Part shown: in pieces, positions 1,252 to 58,038 of the stretch | How positions within the stretch are numbered: the first letter of the stretch is position 1 | Layout of the letters: the number at the start of each line of letters is the position of its first letter | DNA from: Chitinophagaceae bacterium BSSC1 | GTDB taxonomy: Bacteria; Bacteroidota; Bacteroidia; Chitinophagales; Chitinophagaceae | Direction: 5' to 3' | DNA length: 64,000 nucleotides | Assembly: GCA_002256435.1 (NCBI GenBank) | Contig: NKJC01000003.1 | Span: 310,001-374,000, forward strand | Program-made: the position numbers and the translations under genes | The notes under the pieces: model-generated | The model's database searches: none | The model's input: the letters and a program-made list of their open reading frames with translations, nothing else | Told to the model about the DNA's origin: nothing

Positions 1252-2094
1252 TTAATTGGCTTTTAGTGTAACCGTATTGGTTAGGGTTCCAATTCCTTCA
1301 ATGCTTATAGAAACAAGATCATGTTCTGCTAAGGTGAATTCATTGGGTGGCACCAAACAGGTTCCTGTCATCAGAAATACCCCATGCGGAAAACTCATTT
1401 CTCTAAACAGATACCCAATCAATTCAGTATGACTTCTTTTCATCTGATTGATATTGATTTGTCCAGCAAATACTTCCTCACCCTTTCTACTGATGCGCAT
1501 GCTAATGGCTGTATTGGCATCAATAGGAGTTGCTGGAACATACAAACAAGGACCAATAGCCGCGGAATGGTCATAACATTTTGCTTGAGGCAAATACAAT
1601 GGATTCTCCCCTTCTATATCTCTTGAACTCATATCATTTCCAATGGTATAAGCCACAATATTTCCATTGCTATTGGCGTAAAGGGTAAGTTCTGGTTCTG
1701 GCACATTCCATTTAGCATCTCTGCGTATGCGCACTTGACCTCCTTCACCCACAGCCCTTGCAGCTGTTGACTTAAAAAAGATTTCCGGTCTTTCGGCTTC
1801 ATATACTTTGGCATAAAAATCGGCCGCGCCACTGTCTTTGGCTTCTTCCATTCTGGCTTCTCTGCTTCGCAAATAAGTTACCCCAGCAGCCCAAATTTCT
1901 TGAGACTGAATAGGCGGAAGACTATCTGTTGGAATTAGGTCAACAGCTTTCGCATGTAAAGAGCCAATCAATCCCAATAAAAAATCATAGAGCCCATCTC
2001 TATTAATCAGATAGTCCCAATCCAATTCTTCTAACAGATAAAGATCTGTTTCGTGGGTCATGATCACCCCTTGCGTTGTTTTGAAAATTTTCAT
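1252..2094 (-). CDS. fumarylacetoacetate hydrolase (FAH) family protein; candidate 2,4-diketo-3-deoxy-L-fuconate hydrolase or 2-keto-3-deoxy-sugar-acid dehydratase
   Basis: [41 protein letters not shown]...AAIGPC is typical of the FAH/AraD-like fold. Context is GH29, LutABC and UxaA. Confidence 0.75.
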
Positions 2095-2130
2095 GCTTTA
2101 AAGCTATCCAATTTGCTAAATAATATAAGC

Positions 2131-3813
2131 CTATTCCTCAAAAAGCAATTGCAGATCCTTGATCTGTGGTGCTGCTTTTGCTTGTAATATGGTTAGTCTA
2201 AATACCTGTGCTTTAACGGGATCAAATGTTTTAAAGGCAGATGAGCCCAAGCCCTTTCCTTCTACCAAGGTCTTCCATTCTGAACCGGATTGGTATTCCA
2301 ATTTGTATTGTTGAATATTGCCACCTGCTTCAGCTGCGGCCATGGCGCCAATACTATAAGGCTTACCCAAATCAATTTGCAACCAAGCCGTTTTTTGATC
2401 TGCTGCAGCTTTCCAAACGGTTTTACCATCGCCATCTAAGATATTAGCAGGACTAAATTTTTCTGAATCTTGAGAAGAAGCAGTGGCTGTCTTTCCTGAT
2501 GAAGGAATGGGTTCAGAAATAGACAATTGTACCGGACCATTGATGTCTAAAGCAATGACTGTTGCAATAGTATCGGGAGCTGTTTTTGGTAATTGTAAAA
2601 CAGCATAGAGTCCATCTCTACTAATGCCAATCTTTGTTTTTTTATCTGTCAACAATTGCGCTTTAGCAATGGCATTGTTCATAGGAATTTTCAATTTCCC
2701 ATCTGCAGGCCACTCAAATACATGCAAGAACAATTTGTTGTTTTTCTGAGTAGCCCTACCCCAACGCAAATAAGTAAAGGGGCTTGCTTTGCTACCATAA
2801 ATGGCGTCTGCATTAGGTTTGAGCCAAGCACCCACTTGTTTTAATCTTTCCACTGATGGTTCTGGAATAATTCCTTCATCTGTTGGACCAACATTCAACA
2901 AATAGTTTCCACCTTTAGACGCAATATCAATCAGGTTTCTAATTAACACTTTGGTACTCTTCCAATTCTGGTCATAAGATTTAAAACCCCAGGTATCATT
3001 CATGGTCATGCAGCTCTCCCAGTTCTTACCAGGAATTCCTGTTGCTGGAATATATTGTTCGGGTGTTTCTAAATCTCCTTCATATCCACCACCCAATCTG
3101 TTATTGGTAATAATGTCCGGTCTATTCTTCAAGAGGTCTGCTAATTTGGTGGCGCGTTCAGGATTCATATTGGTTGGGGTATCCCACCAAATAATGGCAG
3201 GATTATAGGCATCCAGGATTTCCTTTACCTGAGGCACGGCAACCTCATCTATATACTTGTCCATATTACCTTTCTGTGCCGAATCCCAATAACCGCCATT
3301 GGCTGCACCACCTGGATGGTTCCAGTCTTGGGCCTGAGAATAATACAAACCAAAACGGATCTTGTATTTTTTACAAGCCTCTGCCAATTCCTTTATGGGG
3401 TCTTTTTTAAAAGGCGTTGCGTCTACAATATTGAAAGGATCTTTGGAATGAAACATGGCGAAACCATCGTGGTGTTTGCTAGTAATGACTAAGTATTTCA
3501 TCCCTGCTTCACTGGCTAATTTTACCCAAGCATCTGCATTGAATTTTACTGGGTTAAATCTGGCGGGATAGGTTTGATACACAGACATGGGAATTTTTCC
3601 TCTATTCATGATCCACTCACCAATACCCGGAATCTGTTTACCATCATAGGTTCCAGCCGGAACCGCATAAAGCCCCCAGTGAATAAACATGCCAAAACGG
3701 GCTTCTTTCCACCAATCCATTTTGGGATCATTCAGGGTTTTACTTTGAGCATTGAGTGAACATTGCAGAGCAGCAAATGCCAGCAATAAAAGGGCTTTTT
3801 TCATATAGCGCAA
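2131..3813 (-). CDS. alpha-L-fucosidase, GH29, with C-terminal F5/8-type (discoidin-like) domain
   Basis: Signal peptide; MDWWKEARFGMFIHWGLYAVPAG, SKHHDGFAMF, AIIWWDTPTNM; C-terminal ASSQDSEKFSPANILDGDGKTVWKA...LQIDLGKPYSIGAM. Confidence 0.93.
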   Translation of the reverse strand: MRYMKKALLLLAFAALQCSLNAQSKTLNDPKMDWWKEARFGMFIHWGLYAVPAGTYDGKQIPGIGEWIMNRGKIPMSVYQTYPARFNPVKFNADAWVKLASEAGMKYLVITSKHHDGFAMFHSKDPFNIVDATPFKKDPIKELAEACKKYKIRFGLYYSQAQDWNHPGGAANGGYWDSAQKGNMDKYIDEVAVPQVKEILDAYNPAIIWWDTPTNMNPERATKLADLLKNRPDIITNNRLGGGYEGDLETPEQYIPATGIPGKNWESCMTMNDTWGFKSYDQNWKSTKVLIRNLIDIASKGGNYLLNVGPTDEGIIPEPSVERLKQVGAWLKPNADAIYGSKASPFTYLRWGRATQKNNKLFLHVFEWPADGKLKIPMNNAIAKAQLLTDKKTKIGISRDGLYAVLQLPKTAPDTIATVIALDINGPVQLSISEPIPSSGKTATASSQDSEKFSPANILDGDGKTVWKAAADQKTAWLQIDLGKPYSIGAMAAAEAGGNIQQYKLEYQSGSEWKTLVEGKGLGSSAFKTFDPVKAQVFRLTILQAKAAPQIKDLQLLFEE

Positions 3814-3867
3814 GTGTTGGTGATTAGGTAATTCAATTTAAGCAATCTATTCATTATTCATTGGCTA

Positions 3868-4452
3868 TTAACCCACCAAAATCACCATAGATTTTTTGGG
3901 TCCATGAGCACCAATGACCAAGCTTTGTTCAATATCGGCAGTTTTAGAAGGACCAGCAATAAAAGCTCCGAAACCGATTTCGGAAAAATCAATTTGCTGA
4001 TAGGCTTGGCCCATATTGGAGACCATATTTTTCCTATCTACTACTAAAACCAATTGCTCCGTAATAAAGGGAAGAATTCTCAAAATCATTTGTTCTTCTG
4101 AAACCCATACAGCTCCTGATTCAGCAACTGCCAAGGAACCATTTATAATGGCCATATCAATACTAGCTAATGATTCCAAACTGTCTGTTTGCAATTGCCT
4201 AACAAGGGTTTGACTTGGATTAATTGCATTCAAAACAACTTGTTTTTCCTTGATCAATTCCTGCAAAATAGTGTCAAGTTCCTCATGGTCTTTTACTTCT
4301 AAGCATGCTCCTCCAATAGCTTCTAATATGATTTTGAATTGACTCACCAGATCCTCATATTGAATCATTTCATTTACCCTCACCACTGGCAATTTCTGGC
4401 TCAATGGTTGATTGGCCATGATCCCAGCTAATATGGTTTCTCTTGCACTCAT
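3868..4452 (-). CDS. lutC: LUD-domain lactate utilization protein, LutC-type (track start 4476; MSARETIL start at 4452 preferred)
   Basis: SLASIDMAIINGSLAVAESGAVWV...LPFITEQLVLVVDRKNMVSNM...GPSKTADIEQSLVIGAHGPKKSMVILVG. ATG at 4452 overlaps the LutB stop as ATGA. Confidence 0.82.
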   Translation of the reverse strand: MSARETILAGIMANQPLSQKLPVVRVNEMIQYEDLVSQFKIILEAIGGACLEVKDHEELDTILQELIKEKQVVLNAINPSQTLVRQLQTDSLESLASIDMAIINGSLAVAESGAVWVSEEQMILRILPFITEQLVLVVDRKNMVSNMGQAYQQIDFSEIGFGAFIAGPSKTADIEQSLVIGAHGPKKSMVILVG

Positions 4453-5828
4453 TTTTGTTTGTTGTTTAGGTACCAATCTCTAAAACTCTCTTTAGGAGCT
4501 TCCGGCATTTCACGCTGTTTGAACCAAGGGTTCATTCCATTATTGGTTAAGAAAGGTAGATGCTTCACTACCCATCTTCCCATCTTGCCCGCCATGCGAT
4601 AAATAGCAGGATGCGCCAATACTTCAGACATGCCCCACATGGCAAATGTTTTTCCTTTTGCCGCCATCCCTTCCTTGGTAATTTCTTGACGCCAGAGATA
4701 TAATTGCTCATGAATATTAATCTTCACCGGACATACATTGCTACAACTACCACAGAGCGTGCTAGCAAAAGGTAGATCCTTGTTGGCCTGCATGTCTAGA
4801 TTGGGATTCAAGATGGAGCCTATGGGCCCCGCCACCGCCGTATGATAACTATGACCACCACTTCTTCTATACACGGGGCAAGTATTAAAACAAGCAGCAC
4901 ACCTGATGCACTTAAGCGAGTTTCTAAATGATTCTCTACCCAATTGTCTGCTCCTACCATTGTCAACAATGACAATATGCATTTGCTGACCAGCCCTTGG
5001 TTTGCTAAAATGACTGCTATAAGTAGTAATGGGTTGACCAGTAGCACTTCTAGCTAATAGTCTTAAGAATACACCCAAATGTTCTGCCTTGGGAATGATT
5101 TTTTCAAAACCCATACAGGCAATATGAATCTTAGCAGCATGAGCACCCATGTCTGCATTACCCTCATTGGTGCAAACTACAAATCCACCAGTTTCAGCTA
5201 CTGCAAAGTTCACCCCCGTAATAGCCAGTTCCGATGCAATAAATTTGTCTCTTAAATGCCCCCTAGCGGCTTCGGTTAAATACTGTGGATCATTGTTCCC
5301 TTTCTCTGTTCCAAGATGCTCGTGAAAGGTTTCACTCACGTCTTGTTTTTTCAAGTGAATGGCAGGAAGTACAATATGACTAGGTGTTTCTTTTCTAAAC
5401 TGCACAATTCTTTCACCCAGATCTGTATCAACTATTTCTACGCCTTTCTCCGTCAAGAATTCATTTAAATGACATTCCTCCGTGAGCATGCTCTTGCTCT
5501 TGACAATTCTTTGTACTTGGTTGTCTTGGATAATTTTATAAATAATCTCATTGTGCTCTTTGCCGTCTACTGCCCAATGTACTTGTATGCCGTTGGCGAT
5601 GGCGTTTTTTTCAAAGTCCACCAATAACTGGTGCATATTACTCAAGCCATGGTATTTGATATCCGATGCCCATTGTCTGAGCTGCTCCCATTCCGGAAGA
5701 CTATGCGCGGCTTTGTCTCTTTTCTCTCTGACAAACCAGAGCGTATCATCATGCCAGTCTGTTCTGGGCTCATCGGCTATGAATTGTTCAGCCGCCTCTG
5801 CGTGGGTAAAATTGGCTTGGCTGCTCAT
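4449..5828 (-). CDS. lutB: iron-sulfur lactate utilization protein, LutB-type
   Basis: LUD domain followed by ferredoxin-type motifs CIRCAACFNTCPVYRRSGGHSY and CGSCSNVCPVKINIHEQL. Confidence 0.9.
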   Translation of the reverse strand: MSSQANFTHAEAAEQFIADEPRTDWHDDTLWFVREKRDKAAHSLPEWEQLRQWASDIKYHGLSNMHQLLVDFEKNAIANGIQVHWAVDGKEHNEIIYKIIQDNQVQRIVKSKSMLTEECHLNEFLTEKGVEIVDTDLGERIVQFRKETPSHIVLPAIHLKKQDVSETFHEHLGTEKGNNDPQYLTEAARGHLRDKFIASELAITGVNFAVAETGGFVVCTNEGNADMGAHAAKIHIACMGFEKIIPKAEHLGVFLRLLARSATGQPITTYSSHFSKPRAGQQMHIVIVDNGRSRQLGRESFRNSLKCIRCAACFNTCPVYRRSGGHSYHTAVAGPIGSILNPNLDMQANKDLPFASTLCGSCSNVCPVKINIHEQLYLWRQEITKEGMAAKGKTFAMWGMSEVLAHPAIYRMAGKMGRWVVKHLPFLTNNGMNPWFKQREMPEAPKESFRDWYLNNKQK

Positions 5829-6562
5829 AACTGACTGTTTAAAATTTCCGCAATATGAATGGTCTTGATCTTGCTACCTTGGCGTTTTAAAATACCTTCT
5901 AAATGCATCAAGCAACTGGTATCAACACCCGTAATATATTCCACATCATTGTCCTGGTGTTCCCCAATTCTGTCCTTCCCCATTTTCACACTCACGGCTT
6001 CTTCAAACACACAGAAGGTGCCACCAAAACCACAGCACTCGTCTACCCTTTTTGGTCTAGTTACTTCAATGCCTTTCACCATATTCAATAATGTTTCTGG
6101 CTTAGAAAAAGCCGGTGCCACCAACTCACTCATGCTTGCCAAGTGCAAACCTCTTTGCCCATGACAGCTGGTATGCAAACCTACTTTAAAAGGAAAACTG
6201 GCTTGCAGCGATGTCACTTTCAAAATATCTACCAAAAATTCTGTGAGTTCATAGACCCTGCTTCTGATTTCATCTGCAGCTTTGGGATTATCCTCGTCAT
6301 GTAAGTGTTCCTTAATATGCAAGACACAACTACCCGATGGGGCAACTATATAATCAAAGCCCTTAAAGTTATTTACAAAGTTCTTATCACAACCCTTGCT
6401 CATGGCTTCAAAACCACTATTGGCCATGGGTTGGCCACAACAGGTTTGGTTCAAGGGAAAACTCACATCACAACCCAATTTTTCTAATAACTCCAAACTT
6501 GCAACACCTACCGCAGGATAAAACTGATCAATATAACAGGGAATAAATAAGCCGATTTTCAT
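5825..6562 (-). CDS. lutA: (Fe-S)-binding CCG-domain oxidoreductase, LutA-type
   Basis: KIGLFIPCYIDQFYPAVG...CCGQPMANSG...ECCGFGGTFCVFEEAVSVKMG: two CCG-type motifs; adjacent to LutB and LutC. Confidence 0.9.
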   Translation of the reverse strand: MKIGLFIPCYIDQFYPAVGVASLELLEKLGCDVSFPLNQTCCGQPMANSGFEAMSKGCDKNFVNNFKGFDYIVAPSGSCVLHIKEHLHDEDNPKAADEIRSRVYELTEFLVDILKVTSLQASFPFKVGLHTSCHGQRGLHLASMSELVAPAFSKPETLLNMVKGIEVTRPKRVDECCGFGGTFCVFEEAVSVKMGKDRIGEHQDNDVEYITGVDTSCLMHLEGILKRQGSKIKTIHIAEILNSQL

Positions 6563-6571
6563 AATACTGAA

Positions 6572-8218
6572 TTAAAGACTAACCCCTCTTTTCCAAGGAA
6601 TAAAATCATCCTGCCCCAGTTGAACTGCTTTTGGAATGGTTTTGCCACTAGCCACATCAATACAATATGCTAAAATATCAGCTCCCATTTCTGCAACTGT
6701 TTTTTCTCCCCGAATAATGGAACCTGTATCAATATCAATAATATCAGACATGCGTTTAGCCAATGCGGTGTTGGTAGCAACTTTAATCACTGGACAAACA
6801 GGATTACCAGTAGGTGTTCCCAAACCAGTTGTAAATAAAATCAGTGTAGCACCAGCAGCCGCTTTTCCTGTAGTAGCTTCTACGTCGTTGCCAGGAGTGC
6901 AAACCAAATTCAACCCTGGTTTGGTAGCAGGCTCTGTATAATCCAACACATCAGTTACGGGAGAATTACCTCCTTTTTTGGCAGCACCTGTGCTTTTAAT
7001 GGCATCTGTAATCAAACCATCTTTAATATTACCAGGTGATGGGTTCATGTGAAATCCAGAACCTGCTGCGTGTGCTTGGGCATCATAGGTTTGCATTAAA
7101 TGAATGAATTTTTTTGCGTTGGCTGCTGAGACACATCTATCTATTAAATCTTGCTCAGCGCCACATAGTTCTGGAAACTCTGCTAACAAAACTGTTCCAC
7201 CTAAAGCCACCAATAAATCTGCTGCAACACCTACCGCAGGATTTGCAGAAATACCACTAAATCCATCACTTCCACCGCATTTTACGCCCAATACCAATTT
7301 ACTCAATGGCGCAGCCGTTCTCTGATTTTTATTGGCTTCTTGTAAACCTATAAATGTTTGAAGAATGGCTTCTCTAATCAAAGATTCTTCACTCTTGCTT
7401 TGCTGTTGTTCAAAAGCAAAAATGGGTTTATTGAAATTGGGATTTCTTAATTTAATATCTTTTTGCAATTGCGCTAATTGCAAATGCTGACAACCCAAAC
7501 TCAATAAGGTAACGCCAGCTACATTGGGATGGTCTGCATAGGCTGCCAACAACTTACTCAAAGAATCCGAATCCTGTCTGGTTCCACCACAACCACCTTG
7601 GTGGTTTAAAAACTTAATTCCATCAATATTAGGGAAAACCCGCTTTGTAATGGGGTCTGAAGTTTGAAAATCAATTTTATGTATATCTTCTTTTTTCTCA
7701 ATACTCTGTGCTAACAATTTGGCAAATTGTAAATACTTTCCAGTTACCGCATATCCCAAGCTATGGTGCAATGCTTCTTTGATGACGTCTAAATTTCTAT
7801 TCTCACAAAATACCGTTGGAATAAATAACCAATAATTAGCGGTACCCACTTTGCCATCGCTTCTGAGATAACCCATAAATGTTTTATCCTTAAAGGCAGA
7901 AACATCCGGTGCTTTCCAAACATAATTGGTAGCCCTATAAGCATAAGGCTCGGCAGCGTGTACCGTATTATCTGTAGTCATTAACATTCCTGAAGACAGT
8001 GCCTTGGTTACTTTGCCAACCACAACGCCATACATGAAGACTTCATCTCCTTCCTTCATATCATTGATAAAAACCTTGTGCTTTGCAGGAATTGGGTCTT
8101 TAAGATCTAAAACTCTATCCTGAAAATCAATCTTATTTCCAACTAGCAAATCTGTTAATGCTACAAGTACATTATCGTTCTCGTGAATATGTAAAAATGA
8201 TGTGTTTCTTTCAGTCAT
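6572..8218 (-). CDS. UxaA/altronate-dehydratase family protein (candidate L-fuconate dehydratase)
   Basis: N-terminal SAF-like domain (NDNVLVALTDLLVG...), then FMGYLRSDGKVGTANYWLFIPTVFCENRN, HQGGCGGTRQDS, VLGVKCGGSDGFSGISANPAVG: UxaA signatures. Confidence 0.87.
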   Translation of the reverse strand: MTERNTSFLHIHENDNVLVALTDLLVGNKIDFQDRVLDLKDPIPAKHKVFINDMKEGDEVFMYGVVVGKVTKALSSGMLMTTDNTVHAAEPYAYRATNYVWKAPDVSAFKDKTFMGYLRSDGKVGTANYWLFIPTVFCENRNLDVIKEALHHSLGYAVTGKYLQFAKLLAQSIEKKEDIHKIDFQTSDPITKRVFPNIDGIKFLNHQGGCGGTRQDSDSLSKLLAAYADHPNVAGVTLLSLGCQHLQLAQLQKDIKLRNPNFNKPIFAFEQQQSKSEESLIREAILQTFIGLQEANKNQRTAAPLSKLVLGVKCGGSDGFSGISANPAVGVAADLLVALGGTVLLAEFPELCGAEQDLIDRCVSAANAKKFIHLMQTYDAQAHAAGSGFHMNPSPGNIKDGLITDAIKSTGAAKKGGNSPVTDVLDYTEPATKPGLNLVCTPGNDVEATTGKAAAGATLILFTTGLGTPTGNPVCPVIKVATNTALAKRMSDIIDIDTGSIIRGEKTVAEMGADILAYCIDVASGKTIPKAVQLGQDDFIPWKRGVSL

Positions 8219-16836: not shown

Positions 16837-18549
16837 TTACCAACCTGGATTTTGCTTTAAGTTCGGATTCAAATTCAACTCAGTTTCTGGTATAGGCCAT
16901 AGATAATCACGACTCTTATTAAAATTGGTTAGAATTAAAATACGGTAGTCTGAAGAAGGTTGCGGTATATAAGTAGTATAGTTATAAATAGGTTCGTCAA
17001 ACTCATCAAATTGAACAGAAGGGTATTGGTTAAATTCACCTATTAATGGTCTTCCCATAATTGGCCTTGTCATAATAACTTCAGCACGCTTCCAACGTAA
17101 CAAGTCATCCCAACGAAGATTTTCATTCCATAATTCAATTTTGCGTTCATACCTTACCAATTTTCTCATTTCAGTTTGACTTAAGCCAACTGTAACTAGA
17201 GGCATTTTAACATCACTCCTACCGCGAACCAAATTGATAGCATTGATACAATCAGCATCTATTTGATTCAATTCAATTTTAGCTTCTGCAAAAGTCAATA
17301 ACACTTCTGCATATCTACAAAGCATAAAAGGTGTTTCACATTGTGTAAGCGTGGCTGTGTATTTGAAATCAAAGTACTTTCTTACACAATATCCTGTAAA
17401 AGAAGTAAACACAGTTGAAGTATAACTTTCCGGATTCTTTACAGTAGCACCTGCTGCATTTAAGGTATTTGGCTTGTCTGCCCTTGTGTCATATACAAAC
17501 CCATTCCACATATCTCCAGGAACAACAAAGCAGTAACGCATACGTGGATCACGGTTATCGTATGGCTTTAACTTATTGTATAAAGGAGATGCATTAATAT
17601 TTTTTCCATCAATACACTGATAAGAATCCATCATATTCTGTGTTGGAACAATAGTGGTAAATCCACCAGAAACAGATCTAGGTGCAGTGTACTGTGGAAA
17701 TGCTGTTGCATTGTTAGCAGTTACCAAATGCCCCTGGGTTAAAATTTGTTCTGTATTGCCTGCACTTCTTAAAACAGCTTCAGTAAACAATGCAGAATAA
17801 CTAGGCATTAAGCTATACTGCTTTGAATCAATGACTACTTTGGCAGCTGCAGCAGCAACAGCCCAATCATTATTCTGAAGCGCAGCTCTTGCTTTATAAG
17901 ACATTGCGGCTCCAGCTGTTACCCTCCCTATTTGTTTGTTAGTTGATCCAGTCAATAATTGATAGGACAAATCTAAATCAGCATAAATTTTCTTAAGAAC
18001 TTCTGCTCTAGCTGTTCTGGATACATTTTTACCTTCATCAACAGTTGATACGGGTTTATCAACATATACTACATCTCCAAACATATTTGTCAAACGCAAG
18101 TAATAATAAGCCCTTAAGAAATAAACTTCACCTTGGAATTGTTTAACATTTGCTGCAGAAATTTTGCCCTTATTTTCCTCAATTTTTTGCAACATCAAAT
18201 TACACCTACCAATACCCTGATACATACTTAACCAAAGTGATCTAAAGTGCCCTTCTTTAAAGTCCAATACTGACTGCATAACGTTTTGTGCAAAACCGCC
18301 TCCACGAATAAACACTGTTTCCGTTAATGCATCCATACTAAACTCGGGTGCAAAATAACCATTATTCCCTGCTGTAATAAAAGTATAGCAAGCATTTACG
18401 CCTCCTTGTATTTCAGTTTCGTTAGTGAAAAATGTTTCTGCTGAAGGAACGGTTAAAGGGTATAGTTCAATGGCTTTATTACAGCTTGAAATAAACACCG
18501 TAATAGTTAACATTATATATAATAAATTCTTCCTCATAATTTTAATCAT
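16837..18549 (-). CDS. susD-like: RagB/SusD family nutrient-binding outer membrane lipoprotein
   Basis: Lipoprotein signal ...TITVFISSCNKAIELYPLTVPS; EVYFLRAYYYLRLTNMFGDVVYVDKP; LIRYERKIELWNENLRWDDLLRWKRAE-type C-terminus. Paired with SusC. Confidence 0.95.
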   Translation of the reverse strand: MIKIMRKNLLYIMLTITVFISSCNKAIELYPLTVPSAETFFTNETEIQGGVNACYTFITAGNNGYFAPEFSMDALTETVFIRGGGFAQNVMQSVLDFKEGHFRSLWLSMYQGIGRCNLMLQKIEENKGKISAANVKQFQGEVYFLRAYYYLRLTNMFGDVVYVDKPVSTVDEGKNVSRTARAEVLKKIYADLDLSYQLLTGSTNKQIGRVTAGAAMSYKARAALQNNDWAVAAAAAKVVIDSKQYSLMPSYSALFTEAVLRSAGNTEQILTQGHLVTANNATAFPQYTAPRSVSGGFTTIVPTQNMMDSYQCIDGKNINASPLYNKLKPYDNRDPRMRYCFVVPGDMWNGFVYDTRADKPNTLNAAGATVKNPESYTSTVFTSFTGYCVRKYFDFKYTATLTQCETPFMLCRYAEVLLTFAEAKIELNQIDADCINAINLVRGRSDVKMPLVTVGLSQTEMRKLVRYERKIELWNENLRWDDLLRWKRAEVIMTRPIMGRPLIGEFNQYPSVQFDEFDEPIYNYTTYIPQPSSDYRILILTNFNKSRDYLWPIPETELNLNPNLKQNPGW

Positions 18550-18571: not shown

Positions 18572-21500
18572 TTAAAATTTCAGGTTCACGCCAAATGTGT
18601 AGGTTCCTAGAAGTGGAACTGTATTTTGAATAGATTCAGGTGATTCAGGATCCATGCCAATAGGCATTTTACTGATGGTAAACAGGTTGTTTCCATTAGC
18701 AAAGAAACTTACTCCTGTTAATCCAGTTCCTTTTAACCATGTAGTAGGTAATGTGTAACCTATTTGAACGTTCTTTAAACGTATATAGGCTGCATTAACC
18801 ATCCAGAAATTAGACGATTGCAAATTATTAGATTGCTGATTAATAGATAAACGAGGATAAGCAGCATTAGGATTAGGATTTGCTTCTGACCAACGATCAA
18901 GATGTTGTATAAGTGCTGTGGAAGCATTTTGGAAGGGGTAAGCAGCCCATCCGCCAAAATAACTATCCCTTTTTCCAACTCCTTGGAAAAATAAGCTCAA
19001 ATCAAATCCTTTATAATTCATAGCCAATTCAAGTGAATGGGTATATCTTGGAATAGGACTACCTAAAACCACACGGTCAGTCCCAGTTAACTTTTTGTCT
19101 CCGTCTTGATCAATATACCTGAGGTCTCCTCCTTGTAACTTGCCAAATTGAGCCACATTATATGCCCTTGCTTCAGCGAAAGATGAAAAGAATCCATCAG
19201 ATACCAATCCAAAAAAAGCATCAATAGGAGAGCCAACCTGTCTTACTTTGTTACCAGACACTTGAGGAGCTAATCCACCAAAACTGGTAATTTTATTATT
19301 TACATCAGATAAAATACCTGTTATTTTAAAGTTTACATCTCCAATATGATTCTTGTAAGATACGGCAGCATCCCATCCAATGTTTTCCATAGATCCTGCA
19401 TTTTGACTAGGTGAGTTAGCATAACCCATTACCCCGGGAATAGCAAGACTAAGCAAGATATTATTGGTGGTTTTTTTATACCAGTCAAAAGTTACATCAA
19501 CTTTACCCTTAAATAAGGATAAGTCAATACCATAGTCAATCATGGTACTTGATTCCCAAGTAATATTGTTAAGTGCGTAGGTTGTAGCAGCATACCCTGG
19601 ATTAAGAACTCCATTGAAAACGGTAAATTGGCTAGTGTTAACATTTAACGCAAAAGGATAATTGCCTAAACCAGACTGATTACCCAATTGTCCCCAAGAC
19701 GCTCTAAGCTTACCATTGGATAACCAATCAATGTTTTTCATGAATTTCTCAGCAGAAAAGCGCCAAGCACCTGAGAAAGATGGAAACAAACCCCATTTAT
19801 ACCCATTAGCAAATCTAGAAGAACCGTCATTACGAACATTGGCCTCTAAAAAGTATTTGCCTTCATAATTATAGTTCAATCTTCCGAAATAAGACATTAA
19901 AGCCCATTGTGTGGCACTTCCACTATTGGTCATTCCTGTTGGATCATAAGAACTGATTTGTTCAAACTGTTGAAAATTATTCCCTTGTCTGTAGGCTGAT
20001 ATGGTATTATAATCATTGGTTAAATATTGAAAGCCACCCAAAGCAGAAATGGTATGCTTACCCAATGATTTGGTATAATTTAACAGAAGGTTCAAATCAT
20101 TCTCCGTTGTTTGTTCTGTTTGCTCCGTCATATTTGCTAAAGCCGTTGACTTCAAAGAGATTAGACCTGTTTTGTAATCGTATACATCTGCAGTTTTATT
20201 TACATTCTTATAACTGTTATTATTGATTTTGGGCGTGTACCAAAAATCAATATGCATTCCTTTAAATGGTGTAATTCTTGCAGAAATTTTTGCTAGTATT
20301 TCTTGATACTCCTCCCTTCTTACAGATAAACCGTCGAAGATAAACTGCATGGGATGAGCCGTACCAGCATAGCTAGTACCCCAAATACCGTTTGAATAAA
20401 GTGTTTGATAAATGGCTGGATGCCTCATCATACCTTCAATTTCAGTATTGGGAGCTGCGTCTTTAATAAATGTATTCCTAATAGATAAATCAAAGCCAAA
20501 TTCTAAGACTTTATTTACCGTATAACTATTATTGGAACGCAATCCATAACGCTTGTATTCAGAGTTAGGCAGAAGTGCGTCTTGCCAAGAATAGTTCACA
20601 GAAGTATTAGACCTGAATTTTTCATTACCCACAGAAAATCCAATATATTGTTGCGTTTGAAAAGCCTTGTCTTTATATGCCTGACGCATCATATCGGTAT
20701 TGGGATATGCATCACGGTCTGTAGCATTCTTCCAAGTATCGATTAGTGTTTTTCCGTAAACACTACCTCCAGCAACACCTGCATCTGTACGCAAGTCATT
20801 TCCATTAGCTTCATCATACAATGTCATATAATCCCATGCTGTAGCATTTGTAGGAAGTACCAATGGTTTTGAAAAACCTACAGAACCCCTATAAGTAAGG
20901 TTAACTTTATCAGCTTTTCCACGTTTGGTAGTAATTAAAATCACTCCATTTGAAGCACGTGAACCATAAATAGCAGAAGAAGCGGCATCTTTTAAAACTG
21001 ACATAGATTCAATGTCGTTAGGGTCTACTGCATCAACAGAAGAAGCAACCCCATCAATCAACACCAAAGGATTATTGTCATTTACCGTACCTATACCTCT
21101 AATTCTAATACTGGCACCTTCTTTACCAGGCTTTCCACTATTTGATGTTACAGTAACACCTGGTGCTATACCTTGTAATGCTTGGGTAGTTAGTATGGTG
21201 TTTCTCTTAGTTAAATCCTCTCCTTTTAGTGAAACAACTGATCCTGAAAGGTTTACTTTCTTTTGGGTTCCGTAACCTACTACCACCACTTGGTCCAATT
21301 CATTAACAACTTGGTTCAATGTAATAGCATTCTCTTGACCGGGAATTGGAACCAATTCTACAATTTCATATCCCACTGCTGAAATAGCAATCGCTTTTCC
21401 TTCTGGTACTTTAATAGAGAAAGCCCCTTGTTTGTCAGAAACTACACCGGCGTCCTGTCCTTTAATTTTAATTGAAGCGGATTCAATGGGTTTTCCATCT

Positions 21501-21613
21501 GCCGATTTAACAATACCCTTAATTGACACAGTCTGGGAGTAAGCATTTTGAATCCCGAGGAAGATGGCAAAAAAGAGAATAACAAGCGAAAGAAATGAAT
21601 TTCTTTTTTTCAT
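18572..21613 (-). CDS. susC-like: SusC/RagA family TonB-linked outer membrane protein
   Basis: CarboxypepD-reg-like start VSIKGIVKSADGKPIESASIKIKG...; VVVGYGTQKKVNLSGSVVSLKGEDL; plug IRGIGTVNDNNPLVLIDGVASSVDAVDPNDIESMSVLKDAASSAIYGSRASNGVILITTK. Confidence 0.97.
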   Translation of the reverse strand: MKKRNSFLSLVILFFAIFLGIQNAYSQTVSIKGIVKSADGKPIESASIKIKGQDAGVVSDKQGAFSIKVPEGKAIAISAVGYEIVELVPIPGQENAITLNQVVNELDQVVVVGYGTQKKVNLSGSVVSLKGEDLTKRNTILTTQALQGIAPGVTVTSNSGKPGKEGASIRIRGIGTVNDNNPLVLIDGVASSVDAVDPNDIESMSVLKDAASSAIYGSRASNGVILITTKRGKADKVNLTYRGSVGFSKPLVLPTNATAWDYMTLYDEANGNDLRTDAGVAGGSVYGKTLIDTWKNATDRDAYPNTDMMRQAYKDKAFQTQQYIGFSVGNEKFRSNTSVNYSWQDALLPNSEYKRYGLRSNNSYTVNKVLEFGFDLSIRNTFIKDAAPNTEIEGMMRHPAIYQTLYSNGIWGTSYAGTAHPMQFIFDGLSVRREEYQEILAKISARITPFKGMHIDFWYTPKINNNSYKNVNKTADVYDYKTGLISLKSTALANMTEQTEQTTENDLNLLLNYTKSLGKHTISALGGFQYLTNDYNTISAYRQGNNFQQFEQISSYDPTGMTNSGSATQWALMSYFGRLNYNYEGKYFLEANVRNDGSSRFANGYKWGLFPSFSGAWRFSAEKFMKNIDWLSNGKLRASWGQLGNQSGLGNYPFALNVNTSQFTVFNGVLNPGYAATTYALNNITWESSTMIDYGIDLSLFKGKVDVTFDWYKKTTNNILLSLAIPGVMGYANSPSQNAGSMENIGWDAAVSYKNHIGDVNFKITGILSDVNNKITSFGGLAPQVSGNKVRQVGSPIDAFFGLVSDGFFSSFAEARAYNVAQFGKLQGGDLRYIDQDGDKKLTGTDRVVLGSPIPRYTHSLELAMNYKGFDLSLFFQGVGKRDSYFGGWAAYPFQNASTALIQHLDRWSEANPNPNAAYPRLSINQQSNNLQSSNFWMVNAAYIRLKNVQIGYTLPTTWLKGTGLTGVSFFANGNNLFTISKMPIGMDPESPESIQNTVPLLGTYTFGVNLKF

Positions 21614-21725: not shown

Positions 21726-21763
21726 CTATCGAAAACGATTCCGCAAACATTATCGATAGATAG
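21726..21763. promoter_or_regulatory. candidate operator A upstream of susC
   Basis: CTATCGAAAACGATTCCGCAAACATTATCGATAGATAG; on the reverse strand its core TTTGCGGAATCGTTTTCGATAG differs at 1 of 22 positions from the element upstream of the LacI gene (58013-58034). Confidence 0.75.
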
Positions 21764-24350: not shown

Positions 24351-26825
24351 TCATTTATAATCCAACCAGGCTGTAGCTATTGTATTGGTATCAGTTACAA
24401 AGCGAATCCATCGAGCCTGAATATTGTTCGGGAATTTGAAACTGAATTTTTCATTGGCTTTTACAACAAAGCTTTTATAATTCACCCATTCATTGTCTCC
24501 TGTTGGATCAAATTGAATAGAAATGGTAACAGATTTATTTGATTGATGTGATAGACTAAGTGTACGATCATCGTAAAAACCAAACAAGTAGGGGTCCGAT
24601 GGTATATTGGCAAGAACATTGATATTTTGCCAAGGCCCTCCTTTTCCAACTGGCTTACCTAATTGCCATAAATCATCTATCACGCCAGCCCAAACAGAAC
24701 ATTGCTTATCAGTTGATTGAAAAATATGAGGATTACTAAGAGATGCTGAATTTTGAGTTAAGCCTGTCATAACAAGCATTCCCCTAAATGATGTATAATC
24801 ATTGATTTTAAATTGATGAGAAGAAATAGGTCTAATTTTGGCATATCCATCTGCATTTTCAGCTGGCAATTCGTAGAATGTTCCACCGCAATTAAACAGA
24901 TCTCTTTCAGTAGCCACTTCCCTACAAATACGTAATTGCTGTTTTGCCATTAACTCCTGATATTTTTCATTTCCCAATGGCAATCTCCACCTTCTCTTAG
25001 CATCATCCACAATTAGATAAGAACTAGCATCAACAGTAACCACTTGACTAGGAATAGCAACTTTATCTCTAATAAAATGAGCAATTGAATCATTTGATAT
25101 AGGAACAATCTTCATTTGTTCATCCATCTCATAATACCCTGTTTCTGTTTTTTTATTATCATTTTCAGCATTTGCCAAAATTCCTAGTACACCTCTATTG
25201 TTTCCTACACTATAAAGCAAACCTCCTTGATTTTTAGTAGAAGAAACAGTAGCCAACCCGTTGAACATTTTACTTGCGTTTAGCAATCTTGGCTTATTTG
25301 AGGAATACACAAAAGAGATAGTTGCTTTAGTAGCATTATCTGTCTTTACTCGAATCCATTCTGCATGTTCAGACGGATCAAATGCAATCCAAGTAGAACT
25401 ATTTGCTGCAAGTTTTAGCGTTTGCAATTTGCTCCATTGGTTATTTCCTTTTTTGTCAATTTCAAAAGAAAAATTCAGGTCTTGCGTTCCATCGTTCTTT
25501 ACCCAAGCTATTCTATTATTCCAACCCGCAAACAAAAATGGATCTGATACTTTTCCTGAAGGAATAGATTCCCCAAGCCATACAGAACCAGATGCATCCG
25601 TGGTTCCTGTTTGATCTGGCTGAGTTAAAGATGTAAACCAAAGATTTGATTGAGATTGCCCCGGACCAGCAATCCCTCCTTTAGCTTGTCTTTTATTTAA
25701 AAACTCACTTTTGGCAGCATCGTCACAACCAAAAACCAACTGATCATTCCATCTTGTAAAATCTCCAATAACTTTTAAATAAGAAGATCTAGGACGAATG
25801 CCTGATGTATTTGATGCTGTAAATGTTTGTGGAAACTTCCAAAACATTCCATGCATGGTCATCAAATAATCCGGAATATTATCTGTACCTATATTCCTAA
25901 TCCTAGGCCATTCAGTATTCCAACCATGAGCACCATCATAACTATTACTTGCTTTGGGTAACCTATAAAAAGTCCAATTCCCTTTGTCTCTCAAACCCAA
26001 CAAAACAGATTTATAATCCCAACCCGTAGTCCAAATAGGTTGGTTATTGGGATTGTCATTCCCATATATTCCACCTGGCCCAGTTACTTCAGTAAATTGA
26101 TTTCTTCTAATCAATTTCCAATTTTCCCCATCCCATTCTGAAAGTGAACCAGCCTCAATTCTCGGATCTATTCTGGCTTTTTCTCCCTCCTCGCCGTTAT
26201 TGGAAAAAACGACTACTTTCTGACCAGAATAAGTTCCTTTACCATGTACACCAATTAAAAGTCCGCTTTCGTAACTTTTAGCTCCTTCCCGTTTCAATTG
26301 GTTACCATCTTTGTACAAAGTCTTTACATCCAATGAATGAACATCAACATCATAAAAACCTTCTTCCATAGTTCCAATAATCACTTTATTTGCAGGATCC
26401 GTTAAACTTCTGGCAGTACCTGTAAATCTTCCAGGAGCTTTACTAATAGGAATTACACGAACATTTCTATTGGTATCAATAGCATAAGGCCCAATGAATA
26501 ATTGACTACTTTCTTTGTGGATCATTCTATTAGCAGGAGTTCCGCCAATACTTTCAGGTCTTGTGATCTTTTGTAGGGATGTTGTAATTTCATAAAGCTT
26601 ATCAGAAGATCCAAAGGGCAAATGAGGACCATAAGTTATAACCCATAGACGATTGGCCCAAGGCACAACTGCACCAGTTCCACATTCCCCTTCGTTGTTA
26701 AAATAAGCTAGGCTTGGATAAATTCCACTTATGCTAATAGGCGATTTAATTTTTTGTGCAAACAATGCACCAGCAAAGACAATCAAGCAAAATGGAGTTA
26801 AAAAATATTTTATTTTCATATTCAA
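24351..26825 (-). CDS. secreted 824-aa protein of unknown function with internally duplicated module
   Basis: Signal peptide ...FLTPFCLIVFAGALFAQ; DPFLFAGWNNR...ISFVY and DPYLFGFYDDR...AWLDY align as an internal repeat. No family recognised. Confidence 0.8.
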   Translation of the reverse strand: MNMKIKYFLTPFCLIVFAGALFAQKIKSPISISGIYPSLAYFNNEGECGTGAVVPWANRLWVITYGPHLPFGSSDKLYEITTSLQKITRPESIGGTPANRMIHKESSQLFIGPYAIDTNRNVRVIPISKAPGRFTGTARSLTDPANKVIIGTMEEGFYDVDVHSLDVKTLYKDGNQLKREGAKSYESGLLIGVHGKGTYSGQKVVVFSNNGEEGEKARIDPRIEAGSLSEWDGENWKLIRRNQFTEVTGPGGIYGNDNPNNQPIWTTGWDYKSVLLGLRDKGNWTFYRLPKASNSYDGAHGWNTEWPRIRNIGTDNIPDYLMTMHGMFWKFPQTFTASNTSGIRPRSSYLKVIGDFTRWNDQLVFGCDDAAKSEFLNKRQAKGGIAGPGQSQSNLWFTSLTQPDQTGTTDASGSVWLGESIPSGKVSDPFLFAGWNNRIAWVKNDGTQDLNFSFEIDKKGNNQWSKLQTLKLAANSSTWIAFDPSEHAEWIRVKTDNATKATISFVYSSNKPRLLNASKMFNGLATVSSTKNQGGLLYSVGNNRGVLGILANAENDNKKTETGYYEMDEQMKIVPISNDSIAHFIRDKVAIPSQVVTVDASSYLIVDDAKRRWRLPLGNEKYQELMAKQQLRICREVATERDLFNCGGTFYELPAENADGYAKIRPISSHQFKINDYTSFRGMLVMTGLTQNSASLSNPHIFQSTDKQCSVWAGVIDDLWQLGKPVGKGGPWQNINVLANIPSDPYLFGFYDDRTLSLSHQSNKSVTISIQFDPTGDNEWVNYKSFVVKANEKFSFKFPNNIQARWIRFVTDTNTIATAWLDYK

Positions 26826-26869: not shown

Positions 26870-29206
26870 CTATTTAAGCATAAATTCAATATCAGATTTT
26901 CTAGATTCTGGCGTTACTTTTAATGAAACTATTTTCCCATCTTTTAATTCTCCTTCAATGGTTGTTGCATATGGTGCGTGTAACTTGAAAGAAACATCCC
27001 AGTCTTTAGGCCAGGAGGGAAATAAATAAATCTTATTGTCTACGGTTTGCATTAACATTTCTTGTAGACCAATCATTCCACTACCACCCCAATTATGGTC
27101 TGGTACCCAATCATGCCCAGGCCCCCAAAAAGTTGGAAATCTTCTCTCTGAATCGCGCAGTTTTTGAATAGTAATTGCAGCTGCCTCATTAGTAAGACCT
27201 AAACGAGCACAAAAAATAGCATCCTGATGCCAACTGATATAATTCTTTTGAATTGGCAGATCCGTTCCGTATTTCCATGTATTAATAGCAACATCTAAAT
27301 CTGGCTTTCCAATACCGTAAATACCATATGGGAAAACAGGATATAGTTGAGGAATTTCTTGATTATTTATGCGTGCCCATGTCCAAGCTGGTGAAATGGT
27401 TTTGTGACCATTATTCTCCCTAAATGCAATGGGAGGAATACGATTTAGCATGGCTTCCCAATGTTTGCGCTTTTCTGTTGAAACATATTTGTCTGAAAGT
27501 TCAAGCAAACGAGTTAACACTGTTTTTAATCCTGCAATGGTGGATGTAGAATTATAAGCCATCTTATATGTTTCAGCACCCGTACCGGGATATAAAATTA
27601 GTTTGCCATTCCCATCCAATGCCTGACGACCACGCAAGAGCGCTTCTTTTTGATAATGTTCATCAAAAAAGGTTAAACAACTTTCAATAAAATGAATATA
27701 TTTTGAAATATCCTGACCTGAATAACGATCCAGATCCAACATCATCAAACAAAACTCCATTTGTGTATCCCACAAATATTCTAACCAAAAATTGTATTCT
27801 ACACCTTTAGGAAAATAGTCAGGTCTTTTCCATCCATAAGATGTGGCTAAAGGAAGCCCAAATTGTTCAAGTTGCTCAGTGAAAGAAGCACCTTTATGTC
27901 CCCAATAATATTCCGTTCTTTTTTCTGCGTTTCCTAAGGCTTGTAAATAAAAATTTAACTGTGGCGCAAGCATATCAAAATCTCCGCTTTTAAACATAGG
28001 AAAGTATACTAAACGCTGATTCTGTGCGGTATGCGTGCCCCCACCCCAGTTTCGATGATCAGGAGTAAAAGGAAGACTTTTATCTATATATGATGGGTCA
28101 AAAGTAAATAAGCCGCCATTGAATTTAGTGGGATATTTTCCATAAGCATTACATGCTAATTGATACCTGAAAAGTTGATAGTTTCTTCCAACTTGCCATT
28201 CAGGTAATTTTTCATTTGTATTGGTGGGATTGATAAAAATATAGCTGCGGTTCCAAAATTCATTCCACCAACGCAGTGTTTTTTCTTTGGCAATTTTTTG
28301 ATTTAAAATGGCCATAGCTTCAAAATCAAACAATCCCTTTTTCCAGACTTCAATGGAAGGAACATTATCAACATGCAGAATAACACTCAAATGATTATTA
28401 CGAGAAGGTTTTTTTGTTTTTAACTTCCATCCTTTAAAATCTGTATCTGCATATCTTCCAAATGTGGTTCCAACTGGTTCCATATTTTCACCTATCATTT
28501 CACCTCCAAAAGTCAGATTTTTAAGAGGATTCCATAGTTGGTCTTTAATGGGAACTAAGCTCTGTTGTTTAACAGTAAAATCAAACAAGGATTCATCGCG
28601 GTTGCGATGATAAAAGACAATCTTATCTTGGTTAAATCCAATAGAATCTTTTCGAATAATAGCATTCATTGGGGCATCGCGAAAGCCTAAGCTGGCATTG
28701 GTCATTTTTTGATTGGTCCATTCTAAATCATTCATTCGCCAATTCTCATATATAGCTTCAACAGATACCGGCCTGCTACTTTCGGTTTCAACATTGATGA
28801 CCGGCTTAAAAACATCAACCCAGATTTTAACAAGCGTATTAGTTCCAGCATTAGTTCCTGAAATCTCTACATACCCCTCCTTGAGTTTCAATTCTTGTCT
28901 AAAGACACCCTTATCAAATGGATTGGGACTGATCTTCAACCTTACCCTTCCAAACTTTGGAAAAACATTGTTTTCGTCAAAAGCGCCACTTCTAGAAAGA
29001 TAAAATAATATATCCCCTTTTTCAACCCATACATTTAGTCCAATATCACCACCACCACATGGCATGGATTCAGATGAATTTTGACTTTGGGAAGTCCAAA
29101 CAATATTGTATTGATCTAATCCAATTCTATTCTGACCAAATGTTTTTAGAATTGAACTAGATAAAACAAACACCATTAAAATCCAGACAATACTTTTTCT
29201 CATCAT
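26870..29206 (-). CDS. DUF5703-like (alpha/alpha)6-type glycosidase-like protein
   Basis: LDQYNIVWTSQSQNSSESMPCGGGDIGLNVWVEKGDILFYLSRSGAFDENN...LPKFGRVRLKISPNPF; HDWVPDHNWGGSGMIGLQEMLMQTVDNKIYLFPSWPKDWDVSFKLHAP. Confidence 0.75.
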   Translation of the reverse strand: MMRKSIVWILMVFVLSSSILKTFGQNRIGLDQYNIVWTSQSQNSSESMPCGGGDIGLNVWVEKGDILFYLSRSGAFDENNVFPKFGRVRLKISPNPFDKGVFRQELKLKEGYVEISGTNAGTNTLVKIWVDVFKPVINVETESSRPVSVEAIYENWRMNDLEWTNQKMTNASLGFRDAPMNAIIRKDSIGFNQDKIVFYHRNRDESLFDFTVKQQSLVPIKDQLWNPLKNLTFGGEMIGENMEPVGTTFGRYADTDFKGWKLKTKKPSRNNHLSVILHVDNVPSIEVWKKGLFDFEAMAILNQKIAKEKTLRWWNEFWNRSYIFINPTNTNEKLPEWQVGRNYQLFRYQLACNAYGKYPTKFNGGLFTFDPSYIDKSLPFTPDHRNWGGGTHTAQNQRLVYFPMFKSGDFDMLAPQLNFYLQALGNAEKRTEYYWGHKGASFTEQLEQFGLPLATSYGWKRPDYFPKGVEYNFWLEYLWDTQMEFCLMMLDLDRYSGQDISKYIHFIESCLTFFDEHYQKEALLRGRQALDGNGKLILYPGTGAETYKMAYNSTSTIAGLKTVLTRLLELSDKYVSTEKRKHWEAMLNRIPPIAFRENNGHKTISPAWTWARINNQEIPQLYPVFPYGIYGIGKPDLDVAINTWKYGTDLPIQKNYISWHQDAIFCARLGLTNEAAAITIQKLRDSERRFPTFWGPGHDWVPDHNWGGSGMIGLQEMLMQTVDNKIYLFPSWPKDWDVSFKLHAPYATTIEGELKDGKIVSLKVTPESRKSDIEFMLK

Positions 29207-45576: not shown

Positions 45577-47874
45577 TTATCTAATAAAATCTAGTACCTG
45601 CCAATTTTGATTTTTAATGAGTTGTTTACCTTTCTTGATACCAAATGGATGAACCAAAATAGCATTGTGCTTCACTGCTTCTAATGTAGGACTGATAGAA
45701 TTTCCAGTTGATAACATAATGGAATCTCCCTTTTTTAAATGAACTAATATTTCTCCGTTTCCCAAATACTTAATTGCATTCTTAGTGGAAACAGCCACAG
45801 GTTCTAATTGACTAGCGTAAATTGATTTAAGAATAAAATCTTCCCCTGTTACACTTTTTACTTTAATCCATTCAAGCCGCTTATTTTTCATTGAAGCGCT
45901 CACAAAGAAGCCTCCTTCTGCTTTTAAATCAGAAAAGTTTGCATCTTTCCATTCTTCTGGCAAAGCTGGAAATACATGAATCTTACCACCCCAACTTTGC
46001 AATAACATTTCAAGTACCGATGCTGCGCCACTTAAAGGCGTTTCAATAACTGGATTTCTCCCATCGCTTTCCGTATAAAATGTATTAGCATGAAACTGAC
46101 TAATACCCGTGCTACCCGTTAAAAATTGTTGTAGGTTTTTATTGGCATCATCTCCCCTACCTAATGCCGCGTATAAAGATGCGGCACCTGTATAAGAATA
46201 ACCTGCCAATGATTTACCAGATTCAATTTTATGCCAGTGATCCACAGATTTATCTACTAAAATACTATCCTCTTTTTTATCCGGTTTCAACTGAAAAAGT
46301 GGATACAAGGCTAATAAGTGAGAATAATGTCTGTGCGAAATATCAACAGATTGATGACTTCCTATCATTAATCCATTTTTATCAATAGGATAAGACACTA
46401 ATTTCTCCAATATCTGATTCCACTGCTTCAATTCATTTTTAAAAATTCCTGATTTTTCACAAGTCTGAATCATGGTATTCAATAACCATCGGAGATTTGC
46501 AAGATTGTAATTAGAATTGGTATATTTTTCAAACCCTTTATATTCGGGTGACTCCATAGGAAGAAGCTGAATATTTCCTAAAGAATCATTCACCATCATT
46601 TTCTGATAACAAGCATAAATTTGAAATGCCTTTGGCAACCATTTTTCCTTGATTGCCTGCCAATTTCCATCATAAGCATATTGTTTCCAATAATTATTCA
46701 GAGTCCAACAGAGATCACCAAGCTTGGGACCACAAAATCTATTTAAGAGCACTTCAAAATTATCATCAACAATTTTTATCATGTTTTCTCCTAATGCAAG
46801 ATGATTACTGGTGTAAACTGGAAAATAGGTTAATTGAATATTTAAGTTCCACCACATTCCAGGCCATTGACTTGTTTTATAATAAGGGCCAAATAAATCT
46901 ACAGCAGGTCCGTCAGGTCTAGAGCATGTTGCCATTTTGTATAACTGAATCCAATAGAATGCCTCAACCCTTGCATCGGGTATACTCAAAAAAGATTTTT
47001 GGTAAAACTGGTGCCACCAATTTTGATGTAGCTTTTTAATATTGTTAGGTGACTCTTTTTGTGCACCAGCAATTGCTTCAATTGCTACTTTTTCAGATTT
47101 ATTTGCAATAGGAACTTCATTAGCAATACTTAGATAGAGGGTACTTTGTTCTTCTTTACTGGAAACCAATTCAGTCCAAACAGTTGCATAATCTCCACCC
47201 GCCAATAATGGCTGCTTAATAATATGGAATTGATCTTGAATGAATAATTGCGGTGATGGATTGGTAATATATGACTTAGACTCATTGTTATTGGGGAAAA
47301 CCAATGCCCTTGGCGAAGAGGGATTTCCGGGTAAAAAACGCCATTTATATGCAGCTTTTTCTTCTCCATTTTTTTCAGTTGAAACAACTTCAATTATTTC
47401 TACATTTTGATGATAGGGCACATACGCTTTAATTTCAATGGTACCTGCTGTTGTAATGAATTTGCCTTTTATTTCAGCATTCCAAATATCTTGTTCCATA
47501 GTACCAGATAAGATTTTCCCAAAAGGCTTTAGTAACATTGCTCCCACTTCTAGTCTACAGAAATCATACAAAACACTAGTCCCAGGTACTCCAAAAGATG
47601 TTTTTTTGTCTGGAGCTTTTCTATGGTCAGTCACATCCGTTCTTCCAACATGAAAAACAATACTACTATCCAATTGAGAAACATAAACCATCATTCCAAT
47701 TTGGCCATTACCTGTAAATGCTCCTTCATTCCATTGCAAGGGCATTTCCTCCCATACTAGATTATGCTGTTGGATAAATGATGGCCAATTAACCTTCATG
47801 CTTGGATATACATTTTGAGCAATAACATATGTATATCCTAAAATGGAAAGAAAAAAAGCAAATAATTTTTTCAT
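45577..47874 (-). CDS. GH95-like (alpha/alpha)6 glycosidase
   Basis: WEEMPLQWNEGAFTGNGQIGMMVYVSQ; WPGMWWNLNIQLTYFPVYTSNHL; DISHRHYSHLLALYPLFQL; LLQSWGGKIHVFPALPEEW. Confidence 0.75.
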   Translation of the reverse strand: MKKLFAFFLSILGYTYVIAQNVYPSMKVNWPSFIQQHNLVWEEMPLQWNEGAFTGNGQIGMMVYVSQLDSSIVFHVGRTDVTDHRKAPDKKTSFGVPGTSVLYDFCRLEVGAMLLKPFGKILSGTMEQDIWNAEIKGKFITTAGTIEIKAYVPYHQNVEIIEVVSTEKNGEEKAAYKWRFLPGNPSSPRALVFPNNNESKSYITNPSPQLFIQDQFHIIKQPLLAGGDYATVWTELVSSKEEQSTLYLSIANEVPIANKSEKVAIEAIAGAQKESPNNIKKLHQNWWHQFYQKSFLSIPDARVEAFYWIQLYKMATCSRPDGPAVDLFGPYYKTSQWPGMWWNLNIQLTYFPVYTSNHLALGENMIKIVDDNFEVLLNRFCGPKLGDLCWTLNNYWKQYAYDGNWQAIKEKWLPKAFQIYACYQKMMVNDSLGNIQLLPMESPEYKGFEKYTNSNYNLANLRWLLNTMIQTCEKSGIFKNELKQWNQILEKLVSYPIDKNGLMIGSHQSVDISHRHYSHLLALYPLFQLKPDKKEDSILVDKSVDHWHKIESGKSLAGYSYTGAASLYAALGRGDDANKNLQQFLTGSTGISQFHANTFYTESDGRNPVIETPLSGAASVLEMLLQSWGGKIHVFPALPEEWKDANFSDLKAEGGFFVSASMKNKRLEWIKVKSVTGEDFILKSIYASQLEPVAVSTKNAIKYLGNGEILVHLKKGDSIMLSTGNSISPTLEAVKHNAILVHPFGIKKGKQLIKNQNWQVLDFIR

Positions 47875-58000: not shown

Positions 58001-58038
58001 CTATCGAAATCATTTGCGGAAACGTTTTCGATAGATAG
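58001..58038. promoter_or_regulatory. candidate operator B in the LacI gene 5' region
   Basis: CTATCGAAATCATTTGCGGAAACGTTTTCGATAGATAG; outer inverted repeat CTATCGAAA/TTTCGATAG and inner LacI-like near-palindrome CGGAAACGTTTTCG; ends 14 bp before the ATG at 58053. Confidence 0.78.

Follow-up and report, generated by a model that had tools for sequence, protein, structure and literature searches.

A conserved predicted 34-bp twin operator of a zinc-ribbon LacI-type regulator upstream of lacI and susC in a Chitinophagaceae glycan locus

Introduction

The window, the 64,000-nucleotide stretch of Chitinophagaceae bacterium BSSC1 DNA analysed here, contains a lacI-type regulator gene and a distant susC transporter gene, each preceded by a copy of nearly the same sequence. 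This raises the question of which protein reads the two copies, which genes it controls and how it sits on the DNA. Standard LacI operators are single palindromes of 16–22 bp, and 72% of LacI-family local sugar regulators are autoregulated (PMC4052901). The same survey (Ravcheev et al. 2014), which searched palindromes of 14–24 bp and included one Bacteroides group, reported that LacI intersite distances peak at 13, 22 and 32 bp. Overlapping sites at about 13 bp precede 110 operons, and dimers at such sites were called hard to square with known structures (PMC4052901).

Results

The 34-bp element

Both copies sit where the sequence-only reading had placed them, at 58001 on the lacI side and at 21726 on the susC side, more than 36 kb apart with enzyme genes between lacI and susC. 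As it had noted, 29 of 34 positions agree when the lacI copy is set against the reverse-complemented susC copy, and a single mismatch falls within the 22-bp core common to both. The proposed 38-bp unit held in part: both 38-bp stretches are present, but conservation extends over 34 bp only, and the extra ATAG (58035..58038, + strand, in the lacI-side copy; 21760–21763 in the susC-side copy) is clade-limited, recurring as ATA(G/C/T) solely in the nearest clade of lacI orthologues. The description of an inverted core was overstated, since the direct alignment also matches (27 of 34 positions by our own count) because the element is itself a near-palindrome; the apparent inversion arises because lacI and susC lie on opposite strands.

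The predicted twin operator at lacI (58001..58034, + strand) reads CTATCGAAATCATTTGCGGAAACGTTTTCGATAG, and that upstream of susC (21726..21759, – strand) reads CTATCGATAATGTTTGCGGAATCGTTTTCGATAG on the – strand, 112 bp ahead of the susC start codon. The near-palindrome has CG at positions 5, 11, 17, 23 and 29 (period 6) and is built from two LacI-type cores of the form AWCGWT, spaced 12 bp from centre to centre, and the arms CTATCG and CGATAG. One of the five CG steps is replaced by CA or TG in each window copy. In the lacI-side copy, CG steps lie at 58005, 58017, 58023 and 58029, with CA instead at 58011 (+ strand); the strong core, AAACGTTT, is centred at 58023/58024, the weak core at 58011/58012, and the outer arms occupy 58001–58006 and 58029–58034. 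The strong core of each copy is on the side proximal to its own gene. Each inner core fits an even palindrome of 16–22 bp with a central CG; the conserved unit is, however, the 34-bp twin. The earlier picture of one long operator with an inverted core thus gives way to two overlapping LacI-type sites. No convincing Bacteroidota –7/–33 promoter was found in either upstream region (lacI or susC), so repression and activation cannot be told apart from position.

The element is rare outside its proper setting. A window search with the 22-bp core, allowing any base at the variable position and up to 3 mismatches elsewhere, returned exactly two places, and 100 dinucleotide-preserving shuffles of the window gave 0 matches. 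At up to 3 mismatches the entire 4.34-Mb genome contains only the same two places, and a reversed-pattern control gave 0 matches. A family-wide DNA scan of 399 genomes with the pattern TAYCGNNAWCGNTTNCGNAAWCGNTNNCGRTA was paired with a protein scan for zinc-ribbon LacI in an equal number of genomes (399), drawn in the same way. Of the 399 genomes, 14 encode a zinc-ribbon LacI and 385 do not; sites with 0–1 mismatch occurred in 8 of the former and were absent from all of the latter. Every such site lies at a zinc-ribbon LacI locus or at a distant susC in G139 and the present genome. Neither the genome nor the 399-genome family scan yielded random matches of similar quality, which the sequence-only reading had named as evidence that would count against it.

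The regulator and its zinc ribbon

The regulator gene (58053..59237, + strand) encodes 394 aa, and profile matches identify its product as an unusual LacI protein with a predicted N-terminal IS1/IS1595-type zinc ribbon. The LacI helix-turn-helix (PF00356, 56 bits, cut-off 27; residues 58–103, 58224..58361, + strand) is not at the extreme N-terminus and begins at residue 58; the ligand domain is periplasmic-binding-protein-like (PF00532, 106 bits; PF13377, 100 bits). The ribbon spans residues 6–37 (C6, C9, C29 and C32; 58068..58163, + strand) in a C-x2-C...C-x2-C pattern with GxVRxKQR(Y/F), and its four cysteines are invariant in 38 aligned full-length orthologues. Against a cut-off of 28, NF050000 scores 33.7 bits with residues 1–55 and 29.5 bits with the whole protein. 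A full-length IS1 transposase was rejected as an assignment (NF033558, 40.6 bits against a cut-off of 100, residues 6–85 only). The AlphaFold2 model (mean pLDDT 88.5) shows three strands in the ribbon region and, at residues 41–53 after it, a low-confidence linker modelled as disordered. In a sequence search of solved structures, the LacI relatives listed align from about residue 39 or later, none covering the ribbon, and the ribbon alone gave no significant match. In the literature searched we found no published account of such a LacI subfamily, marked by a transposase-like zinc ribbon.

The zinc-ribbon LacI proteins form a single clade in a careful tree (support 98/94). A quick tree, made without the window row and with a mis-extracted L234, had suggested two independent origins, which the careful tree unites. 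Short ORFs of about 143–175 aa in many relatives (L213–L233) also match the zinc-ribbon profile; they are possibly IS1-type transposases, likely kin of the fused domain.

Conservation at orthologous lacI genes

A collection scan yielded 47 zinc-ribbon LacI loci from named genomes of other Bacteroidota, spanning Chitinophagaceae, several Cytophagales families and Saprospiraceae. The 34-bp element (score at least 20/26) is present upstream of the gene in 43 of the 47, compared with 2 of 47 in a reversed-sequence control, so the conservation at orthologous loci that had been proposed as a check is borne out. The four loci without a good match are L245, L272, L247 and L279. Single-core variants replace the twin in L245 (at –36, CTATCGCAACGCTTGCGATAG), where the arms flank one single 21-bp core, and in L272 (at –162, CTATCGGAAACGTTTTAGATTA); neither form was found near lacI in L247 and L279. 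Strict arm pairs (n = 21) have a 34-bp span in 20 cases and 21 bp in 1. Spans of 16, 22 and 28 bp, seen when one mismatch is allowed, arise largely from internal CG steps, and a supposed natural 6-bp deletion in L246 relative to L243 disappeared once both were read in the right register, each being 34 bp. In L193 (9933–10787; also in L260), lacI and the operator are separated by about 850 bp filled with degenerate repeats, for example ACATCGTACATC and TTCGTACTTCG.

susC, neighbouring genes and second copies

The inferred target susC (18572..21613, – strand) encodes a TonB-dependent receptor of 1013 aa, with susD (16837..18549, – strand) downstream. Divergent from lacI is an FAD-dependent oxidoreductase gene (PF12831; 55454..57736, – strand), whose start codon is 264 bp from the lacI-side operator; the operon starting at 57736 is a possible further target of this copy. 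Across the 47 zinc-ribbon lacI loci, the gene running divergently is susC in 35 and the FAD oxidoreductase in 5. Neighbourhoods of about 20 kb (16 kb in the case of L090) were compared in nine relatives: each has lacI and susC-susD pointing away from each other and a single operator between them, degenerate in G078. The FAD oxidoreductase adjoins lacI in the window and in G139 (Ginsengibacter hankyongi, the source of L235); lacI and susC are 36 kb and 17 kb apart, respectively, and each gene has its own copy.

Second copies were also sought blindly, with the DNA pattern alone, in 36 zinc-ribbon-LacI genomes. They were found directly upstream of susC homologues in L356, L357, L358, L359, L360, L361 and L362, and upstream of an FAD oxidoreductase in L371. 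In L356, the nearest genome compared, SusC is 97% identical and the site is identical to the window's susC-side copy. Separated lacI and susC genes with a second copy directly before susC are thus seen in this genome and at least 7 others. Extra matches in Runella and a Cytophagaceae genome pointed to further zinc-ribbon LacI genes. The blind second copies are the strongest support for the functional claim because they were found without using susC.

The surrounding gene content is that of a large glycan locus: 16837–57736 carries, on one strand, GH29, GH43, GH95, GH106, GH2, GH16 and SASA esterase genes. Within it, the genes at 26870–29206 and 45577–47874 match nothing beyond DUF5703 or part of GH95, and the one at 24351–26825 lacks any Pfam match. 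Elsewhere in the window, 1252–8218 groups FAA hydrolase-type, GH29 fucosidase, LUD/LutB-like, CCG and altronate/galactarate dehydratase-type genes; judged by family names, these could make up a non-phosphorylating pathway from a deoxy sugar to lactate and pyruvate.

The twin layout at ordinary LacI genes

The generality of the layout was assessed upstream of 123 LacI genes selected on the protein alone, of which 117 are ordinary and 6 carry the zinc ribbon. In the ordinary set, the frequency of CG around AWCGWT cores is 28.6% at offsets of ±6, 8.9% at ±12 and 13.1% at ±18, against about 2–4% at most other offsets. A twin-core site (at least 19/24) is present in 26 of the 123 genes, 5 of the 26 being zinc-ribbon, and in 0 of 123 on reversed sequence. 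The CG enrichment and these sites together show that the layout belongs to many LacI regulators in the family, about a fifth of the ordinary LacI genes having it; a twin layout special to zinc-ribbon LacI was accordingly rejected. Earlier core-spacing counts had taken in motif-chosen loci; recounted on protein-chosen loci only, relaxed core pairs at ordinary genes have a modal distance of 12 bp (5 of 16 pairs within 40 bp). The genome studied here also encodes an ordinary LacI paralogue (L004; G000, contig C5), which has a twin site of its own upstream, ATTCCGGCAACGTTACCGGCAACCATACCGGCAT.

Discussion

Proposed regulation and alternatives

The regulator very probably controls its own gene and the glycan importer gene susC through the two copies. 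Autoregulation with direct susC control, as first suggested, is well supported because the element is conserved at lacI orthologues and second copies precede susC. We consider it highly likely that the 34-bp elements are operators of the zinc-ribbon LacI encoded at 58053–59237, twin sites for ligand-released repression of lacI and susCD. Each element would comprise two overlapping sites with centres 12 bp apart, and in each window copy one core would be strong, with a canonical CG centre, and the other weak. Without the sugar ligand, regulator dimers would sit on the elements and repress lacI and susCD, and possibly the divergent operon that begins at 57736; they would be released by a mono- or oligosaccharide derived from the glycan. 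The glycan is probably rich in fucose or rhamnose, judging from the GH29, GH95 and GH106 enzyme genes near the operators. The commoner arrangement would be one operator serving divergent lacI and susC; here the two genes, parted by enzyme genes, would each keep a copy. Binding, repression rather than activation, the ligand and two-dimer occupancy are all inferred. It is doubtful that both dimers are bound at once on one element, since dimers 12 bp apart would compete for the central half-site in canonical LacI geometry.

This geometry lends some weight to a different reading, in which one LacI dimer uses the strong core only, leaving the other core and the far arm as relics or as an alternative register. 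At 12-bp spacing there is room for one dimer only (a structural argument; PMC4052901), the central CG is gone from one of the two cores in each window copy, and single-core variants are known from L245 and L272. The far arm is nevertheless kept even beside a degenerate core, at the fixed 34-bp span of the strict arm pairs, and we give this reading an appreciable chance, well short of even. An origin of the elements as chance repeats, or a non-regulatory nature such as that of transposon ends, is scarcely credible: although they have inverted-repeat form and the linked protein a transposase-like domain, the shuffled windows set the chance expectation at zero, no transposase gene was recognised beside either copy among the window proteins scanned, and the fixed place before lacI and susC across many genera refutes the idea in practice.

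The outer arms invite a further explanation, in which the zinc ribbon, tethered by a flexible linker, acts as an additional DNA-reading module for the CTATCG/CGATAG arms, so that one protein dimer (or pair) spans all 34 bp. Several observations are consistent with it: the ribbon is akin to transposase zinc-binding domains, the linker to the helix-turn-helix is modelled as disordered, L245 keeps its arms around a single core, and the extra matches that revealed further zinc-ribbon LacI genes in Runella and Cytophagaceae were arm-rich. Information content peaks in the arms, a result biased in part by the search pattern. Since the arms also enter the score, their conservation was retested on nonredundant sites picked by the inner cores alone; TA stands at 25 of 28 arm ends for zinc-ribbon LacI compared with 8 of 88 for ordinary LacI (Fisher p about 2e-15, uncorrected for kinship). 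The association counts as one evolutionary event, because the zinc-ribbon proteins form one clade, and could equally reflect the helix-turn-helix of that clade. TA arms are also not exclusive to it: the ordinary LacI of Dyadobacter (L363) and of G129 (L073) have TACCG/TATCG arms, and there is one counter-example subfamily to arm reading by the ribbon. Arm reading strikes us as possible but rather unlikely. Still more tentative is the proposal that a LacI lineage gained a transposase-type ribbon and binds the 34-bp twin in a mode unseen in LacI–DNA structures; if true, the ribbon-bound twin would serve as a test case for the overlapping LacI sites that the 2014 survey left unexplained. Zinc-ribbon LacI and its element offer a clean system for how LacI proteins use overlapping sites, and a predicted regulon rule for a set of Bacteroidota glycan-use loci under LacI rather than SusR or hybrid two-component systems.

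Comparison with known systems

The 12-bp form with five CG steps resembles, without quite matching, the known overlapping LacI sites, which are spaced by about 13 bp. One such case, GntR at gntKU of E. coli, likewise has two LacI-type palindromes overlapping head to tail, and in the sequence upstream of gntK in E. coli K-12, ATGTTACCGATAACAGTTACCCGTAACAT, the core centres are 13 bp apart by our own reading. Unlike that system, the window element has 12-bp spacing, a 34-bp palindrome, five CG steps with a 6-bp period and a zinc-ribbon protein. Autoregulated LacI sugar regulators share the helix-turn-helix with Peripla_BP architecture, CG-centred cores and a regulator gene inside the sugar-use locus (PMC4052901), but have a standard single palindrome instead of the 34-bp twin. 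Residues 6–37 score above the curated cut-off for the N-terminal zinc-binding domain of IS1/IS1595 (NF050000), but unlike those transposases the regulator has no transposase catalytic domain, the ribbon being fused to a LacI-type protein. SusR and HTCS of Bacteroides polysaccharide utilization loci likewise control susC/susD loci; their motifs are direct repeats with long spacers (PMC3878776), whereas here the motif is a LacI palindrome. The twin layout itself is not unique to this element, and what appears to be new is a zinc-ribbon LacI subfamily with a conserved predicted operator.
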